In this document: one piece after another, positions 20,541-22,461 of the stretch | Layout: every line of letters begins with the position of its first letter | Position numbering within the stretch: position 1 is the first letter of the stretch | IMG/VR virus record: IMGVR_UViG_3300010354_000733 | Location: 1-22,461 of that record | DNA: 22,461 nt | Source: a virus | Direction: 5' to 3' (one strand) | Made by a program: the position numbers and the translations under genes | The notes under the pieces: generated by a model | Seen by the model: only the letters and a program-made list of their open reading frames with translations | Database searches by the model: none | Told to the model about the DNA's origin: nothing

Positions 20541-21317
20541 ATGAATACAGGGTGGATAAAAATTGACCGGGCCATTACGGAACATTGGATATTTGATGAC
20601 CCGTGGAAATTTCGCGCATGGATTGATTTGTTATTGCTTGCAAATCATGAAGACAAATTGGTCAATATTGACAATGTTGTATATAATTGTGGACGGGGTG
20701 AATTGTTGAGGTCATACGATAGTTTGGCGCGACGTTGGCGCGTGGAACGTAGCAAAATAAGGCGTTTTCTCTTATTGTTACAGGACCATGACATGTTGCG
20801 TATCAAAAACGAAAAAAAAACGACACGCATAAGTATCTGTAAATATGAGAGTTACCAAGGTGAGCGAAACGCAGATGAAACGCAGATGAAACGCAAACGA
20901 AACGCAAATGAAACGCAAGTGAACACAAACAAGAATGTAAAGAATGTAAATAATGAAAAGAATATTATTTATGGTCCTTCGGATTTCCTGAATGATTTGA
21001 TTTCAATTGGTGTTGAAGAAAATTTGGCGAATGATGTAATTGAACACAGGAAGAAATCAAAAGGGATATTCACCAAACGTTCATTCCAAGGATTGAAAAA
21101 AGAACTTGATATTTTTGTTGAAACAGAAAAACAACCATATTCATCCGCATTGACATGGTTGATTGAAAAAACAACATGGCGCACATTTACATACGAATAT
21201 TATTCAAACAAATTAAATTTTCACAAATCAAAAAATGAACATGAGTACAAACAAATCAAAGAATTTGGCGAATTGGATTCAAAGTGGAATATACAAAACG
21301 GATTCAACCCGGATTGA
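20541..21317 (+). CDS. Replication initiator, O-like, with internal iterons
   Basis: The 258-residue protein probably binds the origin and starts phage replication. Residues 1-105 form a winged-helix region: GWIKIDRAITEHWIF, FRAWIDLLLLANH, a start of HTH LRSYDSLARRWRVERSKIRRF, and wing strand MLRIKNEKKTTRISI. This N-terminus is typical for phage O/DnaD-like initiators. Residues 109-127 are encoded by five 11-bp DNA repeats. The C-terminal part (about 140-225), with FLNDLISIGVEENLANDVIEHRKK and SALTWLIEKTTWR, is helical and may bind the helicase or loader. The helicase-loader gene follows with an 83-base overlap. The layout is like lambda O, where the origin is inside the gene; function is by pattern. 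Confidence 0.75.
   Translation: MNTGWIKIDRAITEHWIFDDPWKFRAWIDLLLLANHEDKLVNIDNVVYNCGRGELLRSYDSLARRWRVERSKIRRFLLLLQDHDMLRIKNEKKTTRISICKYESYQGERNADETQMKRKRNANETQVNTNKNVKNVNNEKNIIYGPSDFLNDLISIGVEENLANDVIEHRKKSKGIFTKRSFQGLKKELDIFVETEKQPYSSALTWLIEKTTWRTFTYEYYSNKLNFHKSKNEHEYKQIKEFGELDSKWNIQNGFNPD
20866..20920 (+). repeat. Five 11-bp tandem iterons, putative replication origin
   Basis: Five contiguous units of consensus GAAACGCARAT start at 20866, 20877, 20888, 20899 and 20910; units 1 and 2 are identical, and units 3-5 differ at the last three bases. The 11-base period is close to one helix turn, so an initiator bound at each unit would be on one face. As 11 is not a multiple of 3, the repeat is not explained by a peptide repeat. 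AT-rich DNA follows (20921-20972). Confidence 0.75.
20921..20972 (+). other. AT-rich segment beside iterons, possible unwinding element
   Basis: The stretch is very A/T-rich, has AAGAATGTA twice (20931 and 20940), and runs to AATATTATTTATGG. In iteron origins an AT-rich unwinding region lies next to the repeats. Inference from position. Confidence 0.4.
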
Positions 21318-21903
21318 ACCTAAATGTGACCCCCAAGAATTATTCCAAAACTTCATCCGGATTGCGCAACGTATTCCGGGGGGATATGAAATAAACAAGC
21401 AAAATGAACAAATATTGTACAAACTTTGTATGTATTTTTCAAATTCCCCGGAATTGGACCAATCAATTTTGCGTAAAGGAATTATGTTGGTAGGCAATGC
21501 GGGTTCGGGAAAAACAACCATAATGCGCATATTTTCACAAATTGTTCCATTTTCAATGTTGTATGTTGATTCAATATGTGACAATGTCAGAAAAGAAGGA
21601 CAGGAAGCAATTGACCGATTATATTCACGCCCTCATGATGAATTTTGTTATGATGATTTGGGAAGTGAACAAAAAATCAAATTTTATGGTTCCCAAATGG
21701 ATGTCATGCATGATGTCATTATTAAACGTTGCCGAAATTTGGTGATGCATGGAACCCGGACGCATTTCACCACCAACATGTCAATGGGTGAAATATCCAA
21801 ATTATATGATTTGCGGGTTGAAAGCAGATTGAACGAAATGTGCAACGTGTTGGTATTGGGCGGAAATAAAGAATACAAAGATTTCAGAAAACAAACATCA
21901 TGA
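21235..21903 (+). CDS. DnaC-like helicase loader ATPase
   Basis: The 222-residue protein is a P-loop ATPase: Walker A GNAGSGKT (87-94), Walker B FCYDDLG (137-143, with Asp140/141). Sensor-like FTTNMS and a final arginine region SKLYDLRVESRLNEMCNVL match the DnaC/IstB-type loaders of the AAA+ class. It probably loads the host replicative helicase on the origin bound by the upstream initiator, as no helicase gene is visible here. The N-terminus (1-60) lacks a zinc finger. ATG 21235 and ATG 21241 are both possible; the overlap with the initiator gene is about 80 bases, long for this genome but without a later good start. Confidence 0.8.
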   Translation: MNMSTNKSKNLANWIQSGIYKTDSTRIEPKCDPQELFQNFIRIAQRIPGGYEINKQNEQILYKLCMYFSNSPELDQSILRKGIMLVGNAGSGKTTIMRIFSQIVPFSMLYVDSICDNVRKEGQEAIDRLYSRPHDEFCYDDLGSEQKIKFYGSQMDVMHDVIIKRCRNLVMHGTRTHFTTNMSMGEISKLYDLRVESRLNEMCNVLVLGGNKEYKDFRKQTS

Positions 21904-22385
21904 TTGAAAAGGAAATATTGAAATTAAAAAACCGGCGGAAGGCCTTATTGCAAGAAATTGACAAGGCCATTGTTGAAATCAAAGAAATTCATCACACATT
22001 GGTGCAATACGAAGAATTCAACCCAAATGACCATGGGAAATATTTTGATTTGGTTGTATTTGATTTGTGCAAAATTTGGAACATCAATCCGTCCGAAATC
22101 AAATCCAAATCCCGGCAAATTGATTTGAGCATGAAAAAACACATCATCCGGTGGGTTGCAAGGGAAAAATTGCACATAACATGTGTATTGACAGGAAAAT
22201 TGACCGGTGTGGACCATTCAAGTGTGATTCATTCATGTCAGGTAGTTGACCAACAACGCCAATTCCCGTGTATTGCCTTCCAACGTTCATGGAAACCAAT
22301 TCAAGAATACATCAACAAAATCCATTGTCGTTTTCCTGAATTAGCAAACAAAGAAATGTACAAATTGGCCGGGGTCAATTTTTAA
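21900..22385 (+). CDS. Protein with DnaA domain IV-like DNA-binding region
   Basis: The 161-residue protein has an N-terminal coiled coil (about 1-35, EILKLKNRRKALLQEIDKA) and a C-terminal half like DnaA domain IV: VVFDLCKIWNINPSEIKSKSRQ, then KKHIIRWVAREKLHIT, and the signature TGVDHSSVIHS (102-112), the part of DnaA that reads the DnaA box. The AAA+ domain of DnaA is absent, so the protein probably binds DnaA boxes without using ATP. It is coupled to the helicase-loader gene by ATGA. It might direct loading to the phage origin or compete with the host DnaA; both are inferences. Confidence 0.8.
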   Translation: MIEKEILKLKNRRKALLQEIDKAIVEIKEIHHTLVQYEEFNPNDHGKYFDLVVFDLCKIWNINPSEIKSKSRQIDLSMKKHIIRWVAREKLHITCVLTGKLTGVDHSSVIHSCQVVDQQRQFPCIAFQRSWKPIQEYINKIHCRFPELANKEMYKLAGVNF

Positions 22386-22391
22386 CAATTT

Positions 22392-22448
22392 AGATTATTT
22401 TTTAACAAATCTATATTTGACATTGTTATTTTTTTAGTATCTTTGCAT
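22392..22448 (+). repeat. Dispersed promoter repeat, copy 2
   Basis: This is the second copy of the sequence at 17609-17666. It is preceded by TTTTTAACAA at 22379-22388 and contains the same word again at 22399-22408. The repeat ends with TTTGCAT. Confidence 0.8.
22416..22445 (+). promoter_or_regulatory. Consensus Bacteroidota promoter (repeat copy 2)
   Basis: TTTG (22416-22419), 18 bases, then TATCTTTG (22438-22445) gives a full match to TTTG-N18-TAnnTTTG. The window ends in AAACAAAACACAA, which in copy 1 is followed by ATG, so a gene probably starts at or just after 22462. Confidence 0.8.
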
Positions 22449-22461
22449 AAACAAAACACAA

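Follow-up and report, generated by a model that had tools for sequence, protein, structure and literature searches.

The locus studied here raises the question of why a phage replication initiator gene should carry in its middle a short tandem array whose unit length is not a multiple of the codon. The stretch of DNA analysed (the window) is a linear virus record of 22,461 bases, and the initiator gene occupies positions 20541-21317 on the plus strand, as do all the features within it. According to its open reading frame, a match to PHROG 2514 and an AlphaFold2 model, the gene encodes a product of 258 aa composed of a winged-helix N-terminal domain (NTD), an array-holding linker and a C-terminal domain (CTD). 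The array starts 325 bp into the gene and consists of five 11-bp units with the consensus GAAACGCAnnn, located at 20866-20920: GAAACGCAGAT at 20866-20876 and again at 20877-20887, GAAACGCAAAC at 20888-20898, GAAACGCAAAT at 20899-20909 and GAAACGCAAGT at 20910-20920. TRF reports 5.3 copies with 91% matches and a score of 88, the top score in the window. The core GAAACGCA occurs seven times in the window, five of them within the array, and dinucleotide shuffles of the window hold it 1.5 times on average and five times at maximum. A degenerate sixth unit (GAACACAAACA, 20921-20931) forms the junction to an AT-rich 9-bp array (AAGAATGTA, 20931-20966; 3.7 copies, TRF score 52), which we propose to be an unwinding element; the AT content of the 45 nt from position 20924 is 80%, and 1.7% of the stretches of the window are as rich in AT. 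The array is very probably the initiator-binding part of the phage replication origin, placed, as in lambda, inside the initiator's own gene.

The NTD (residues 1-100, 20541-20840) is delimited as a winged-helix DNA-binding domain by the AlphaFold2 model and by an alignment of 18 sequences, in which it is conserved. In the model it contains, with high pLDDT, helices at residues 59-66 and 70-82 and wing strands at 86-90 and 95-99. The model is of low confidence between this domain, where pLDDT is mostly above 90, and the C-terminal helices, and the array lies in that segment, so that TRF and the model together bear out the arrangement described in the earlier note, namely five 11-bp repeats with an AT-rich flank between the winged-helix and C-terminal parts. 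The PHROG 2514 profile match (E 9.8e-31) covers residues 1-141 only, leaving outside the helical CTD (20970-21314, helices 146-210 in the model). No domain was found in this CTD in Pfam or NCBIfam, and the DnaD CTD (PF07261, TIGR01446), present in the relatives L029 and L154, has no match in the window initiator. A Foldseek search of the initiator against PDB returned generic winged-helix regulators only (best E 0.012) and therefore points to no specific structural family. The exchangeable CTDs of the relatives suggest that the window CTD may serve as the helicase or loader contact.

In regard to the neighbouring genes, the end of the initiator gene is overlapped by a gene for an AAA+ DnaC-like helicase loader (21235-21903, plus strand; PHROG 50, E 2.6e-13, and PHROG 3277, E 1.2e-6). 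Positions 21900-22385 encode a 161-aa protein that contains DnaA domain IV only, without the AAA+ part (PF08299, 1.8e-9; NCBIfam DnaA, 2.5e-10), and that may bind DnaA boxes of the host or of the phage. The earlier note had pointed to the adjacency of initiator, loader and DnaA-like protein, and all three are indeed present in the window. The DnaA-like protein was, on the other hand, rejected as a part of the module, as a similar protein was found near only one of 100 relatives (L083). A helicase, primase or loader gene stands next to the initiator in 8 of 10 relatives, and the downstream partners differ among them, including DnaC-like and lambda-P-like proteins, DnaB helicase, a primase-helicase and a RecA-like ATPase, in keeping with a recognition module that stays the same and recruitment modules that can be exchanged. 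The RecA-like ATPase (PHROG 5482, of unknown function) follows the initiator directly in L003, L006 and L115, in the place of the loader or helicase; it shows distant similarity to phage primase-helicases and may be the partner of the CTD type found in these three sequences. Upstream of the initiator, the gene at 19737-20405 matches PHROG 7838 (exonuclease, 9e-33) and PHROG 7792 (unknown), and its product is possibly a recombination protein. Just before the contig end, at 22386-22461, there is a promoter-like motif, TTTGAC...TAGTATCTTTGC, which we read as being of the Bacteroidota type, and judging from this motif the host of the phage is probably a member of Bacteroidota.

Relatives of the initiator were drawn from viral contigs, GTDB genomes, phages and plasmids by single-protein queries, and the array was counted in 131 non-redundant sequences, window included. 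At least three exact 5-mer cores at steps of 11 or 12 bp were present at the same place in 124 of them. When other step pairs were used, at most 14% of the sequences reached this count from 12/13 upward; higher values for pairs that include 9 or 11 are due to the 9-bp array and to the 11-bp array itself. The remaining seven sequences look degenerate or respaced, and relatives with a conserved protein but no repeat were looked for and not found. Of 97 unique linkers, 95 had sufficient length for scoring, and 79 showed 11 bp as the best non-codon period, 4 showed 22 bp and 10 showed 23 bp. The period of 11 bp was also the best non-codon one in 30 of 32 held-out relatives; alignment with related phages had been suggested in the earlier note as a check. 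Sequences L028, L030 and L036, as well as L089 and the near copies of L089, have cores spaced by 12 bp or by alternating 11 and 12 bp (L028 being an example of the former, and L036 of the latter, which gives the period of 23 bp). Judged by their sequences, such arrays are spacing variants of the same array, again with about one helical turn per unit.

The low-GC element past the array is likewise found in the relatives, where the 45 nt that follow the array have a mean GC content of 24%, compared to 44% within it, and a codon bias towards AAG, AAT, GAA and GAT. In the group of initiators with Gln or Arg at residue 71, AAGAATG follows the last core at a distance of 10 nt in 45 of 48 sequences. 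The junction C(A/T)AACAA(G/T)AATG (CACAAACAAGAATG) is common to the window and to Staphylococcus and Vibrio phages, and within the window's own group, characterized by Ser71/Arg75 and GAAACGCA, the AT-rich array varies widely. Considered apart from the 11-bp units, the 9-bp array could be no more than repeated codons, as nine is a multiple of three. Codon choice in this region across the relatives counts against it: compared to other parts of the gene, AAG is favoured over AAA with an odds ratio of 2.7, and AAT over AAC with an odds ratio of 5.7.

In a blind scan of 90 NTD columns against iteron sequence, controlled for overall NTD identity and performed without any structure, residue 71 ranked first (0.45) and residue 75 second (0.35), with a permutation maximum of 0.237. 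With one sequence per cluster (n=42), 71 and 75 again led, followed by 94, 91, 76 and 96. In the AlphaFold2 model, residues 71 and 75 lie one turn apart in the helix 70-82 (20748-20786), which the model and this covariation mark as the recognition helix, and residues 91-96 are located at the wing. Arg71 goes with GAC and Gln71 with AAC in all 50 of 50 sequences, 21 of them held out. At the level of single units, Arg71 sequences have G before AC(C/A)A in 44 of 45 cases, and Gln71 sequences have A there in 67 of 67; newly fetched relatives gave G in 25/25 units for Arg71 (6 sequences) and A in 59/59 units for Gln71 (15 sequences). Arg-G and Gln-A are classic major-groove pairs. In four held-out cases the nearest training sequence carried the other residue, and in all four the base matched the sequence's own residue. 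When column 71 is left out of tree building, the tree shows seven changes of the residue and seven of the base, and the independent pairs of residue and base changes all agree, five of five on supported branches (p 0.0625) and seven when all branches are used. This single-base rule covers Arg71 and Gln71 only; the window itself has Ser71 (codon AGC, 20751-20753) and Arg75 (codon CGT, 20763-20765) with GAAACGCA, a pairing found in 36 of the 77 sequences compared. Initiators with Lys71 (L051, L059, L243 and L244) have iterons with GGGCAA or GGGCGA, and their sequences suggest a possible third entry of the code.

From the sequences we infer binding, melting, helicase loading and a start of replication at this locus. 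Winged-helix NTD monomers would occupy neighbouring iterons on one face of the DNA, all oriented alike and each taking one 11-bp unit per helical turn, and the iteron core would be read by the wing and by residues 71 and 75 of the recognition helix. Such directional assembly would end beside the AT-rich 9-bp array, which would melt, and the helicase would then be delivered by the initiator CTD together with the DnaC-like loader from the next gene. At the protein level, the array would supply only a flexible linker. Alternatively, binding of the initiator could serve mainly self-regulation, the array being an operator or roadblock within the gene that keeps down transcription of the initiator-loader operon, and replication would start elsewhere. 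The covariation, taken by itself, speaks to recognition of the iterons by the NTD and not to what the bound array does, and iteron-bound plasmid initiators often autoregulate as well. However, an operator would hardly be expected 325 bp inside the gene, the low-GC element after the array with its fixed 10-nt register in one large group is expected of an origin, and the precedents of the same layout are origins, which makes the regulatory explanation improbable.

Some further signs of an origin were inspected in the window and in known phages. The GC skew, suggested in the earlier note as a check, rises almost steadily along the 22-kb fragment and does not turn at the array. For 80alpha and KLEP17-4, the minimum of the detrended skew is located 1.8 kb and 0.9 kb, respectively, from the in-gene origin or array, which is weak evidence, since the direction of transcription changes nearby in KLEP17-4. 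DnaA boxes (TTWTNCACA) number four in the window, compared to three for a reversed-pattern control, and none is at the array. The recognition element of DnaD is TnnT (PMC10201434); it occurs 15 times on the lower strand of the 9-bp array, compared to a mean of 13.2 in same-letter shuffles (p 0.22), which gives no support for a DnaD element there. The strand folds into a hairpin no better than shuffles do (z -0.06), and Rfam and tRNA scans found nothing.

The reading of the array as the binding part of an origin also agrees with the way in which the domains of these initiators are combined. Iteron similarity follows NTD similarity (Mantel r 0.59, p 0.001) and, when the NTD is controlled, is unrelated to CTD similarity (r -0.05), with the note that Mantel permutations leave shared ancestry in place. 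Related NTDs joined to unrelated CTDs have an iteron similarity of 0.71, compared to 0.57 overall. Natural exchanges are found as well. In the pair L006/L115, 98% of the CTD score is common and NTD identity is only 29%, the iterons being GAAACGCAAAT and CGACCAACAAA, and DNA identity resumes 8 nt past the array; the pairs L081/L119 and L107/L120 represent further exchanges of NTD plus iterons of this kind. The exchange between orf46 of phage PVL and a plasmid-borne relative in Staphylococcus aureus (L029/L154) has a less sharp boundary, with a change point 24 nt past the array. Altogether, DNA identity resumes between -6 and +15 nt from the array end in 62 of 69 non-independent pairs, behind which we infer about three to four separate exchanges. 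As read from these alignments, NTD and iterons are swapped as one unit next to a near-identical CTD, with the DNA junction at the array end. It is likely that, across the family, residue 71 sets one iteron base (Arg with G, Gln with A), and that NTD and iterons travel as a matched cassette recombined onto unrelated helicase-recruiting CTDs, with exchange at the junction of iterons and AT-rich array, in phages of distant bacteria.

The clustering of exchange points at the array end, together with the mosaic nature of phage initiator genes, could also be explained if the repeats were a recombination joint between the domains, maintained for the exchange of N- and C-terminal parts that it allows among phages. 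Such a joint does not predict that iteron bases follow residue 71, and the exchanged partners bear different arrays and thus offer little homology in which to recombine. We regard this explanation as very improbable, and the clustering is better seen as a consequence of the cassette layout.

Concerning the level at which the repeat is maintained, the codon position at which a unit begins shifts along the array (2, 1, 3, 2, 1 and 3), so that one and the same DNA word appears in each of the three frames. In 3000 synonymous recodings, with the protein fixed and the codons redrawn, the 11-bp autocorrelation did not exceed 33, compared to 39 in the actual gene, and among the relatives period 11 exceeds the per-sequence synonymous null (z > 2) in 89% of 99 sequences, other periods from 7 to 16 doing so in at most 18%. 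Unit-to-unit match within arrays is 0.80, 0.82 and 0.84 at codon positions 1, 2 and 3, hence there is no relaxation at the third position; the core is kept in every frame across the relatives, and the 3-bp spacer is more variable. The suggestion that a repeat out of codon phase likely reflects selection on DNA is thereby upheld. A neutral tandem repeat, or a repeat kept at the protein level in a disordered linker, would agree with the low predicted confidence of the encoded segment, but a period that is not a codon multiple, the 0/3000 recodings, the unrelaxed third position and the family-wide conservation leave it practically no probability, and the synonymous nulls already refute it as the main explanation.

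To the few model phages and plasmids with a known in-gene origin, the family described here adds more than 100 natural pairs of initiator and origin. Their common geometry is that of one unit for each turn of the helix, to which one large group adds a fixed register to the AT-rich array. The residue-base rule predicted held-out sequences without error. Such natural sequences make the joint change of initiator and origin, as well as the split between recognition and helicase recruitment, directly testable. Furthermore, origins in uncultivated phages can be located simply by such arrays, and it can be predicted which phages share origin specificity.

Within the open-access literature searched, in which no binding or replication experiment on this initiator family was found, the one-turn arrays, the fixed junction and the residue-base code are apparently new, while origins of this kind are already known from lambda O, 80alpha ORF20 and pSK41 Rep. 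The winged-helix NTD of pSK41 Rep binds boxes located centrally inside its own gene, with a dispensable linker, and in pPR9 the NTD and origin were exchanged as a block, the pPR9 minireplicon being functional (PMC5703833). The window protein differs from RepA_N initiators such as pSK41 Rep and from the hybrid Rep of pPR9 and pUSA03, as the RepA_N profile PF06970 has no match in it at E up to 1. The rep gene of pUSA03 (L292, 101-1060), which encodes a hybrid plasmid Rep, contains 3.8 copies of a 23-bp tandem unit and, after them, a 15-bp array, and the origin of this plasmid type is likely to lie here, within the gene; the rep gene shows no match to the NTD profile of the window family.

Among phages, lambda O and SPP1 gene 38 are established cases of an in-gene origin. 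Such an origin has also been proposed for Staphylococcus phage 80alpha, where deletion of ORF20 is not complemented in trans and ORF20 with ORF21 is sufficient for replication (PMC5499656). The SPP1 G38P-like ORF20 resembles the window initiator in holding the origin inside the gene, with mid-gene repeats and an AT-rich stretch, and in having a DnaC-like loader next to it. Its NTD and CTD are different (PHROG 428, Phg_2220_C), and its repeats of 15/30 bp are codon multiples, unlike the 11-bp units of the window. On the other hand, orf46 of phage PVL (PHROG 2514 / PHROG 186 'DnaD-like helicase loader') belongs to the NTD family of the window and has, at the same place, 7.9 units of 11 bp and an AT-rich 9-bp array. 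Unlike the window initiator, it carries a true DnaD CTD (TIGR01446), and its iteron is CAACATCAAAA; the public name of the family describes the role of the CTD and not the origin.

Finally, lambda O and the window share iterons placed in the initiator gene between NTD and CTD, an AT-rich stretch downstream and a helicase-loader gene next to it. The two differ in NTD type and in spacing, lambda having four 18-bp iterons 20-24 bp apart and the window 11-bp direct units that follow each other at one helical turn. The match of lambda O to PHROG 2514 (E 2.8e-37) runs through residues 96-297, and the window protein was not among the matches when relatives were searched for the lambda-O CTD, which sets its CTD apart from the lambda O family proper. 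Still, the comparison supports the earlier proposal of an in-gene iteron origin as in lambda O, because in Vibrio phage 1.276.O (L031) the NTD of this family and an 11-bp array are joined to a lambda-O CTD (50% identity over 82 aa), an arrangement that, at the level of sequence, is a direct bridge for the lambda analogy.
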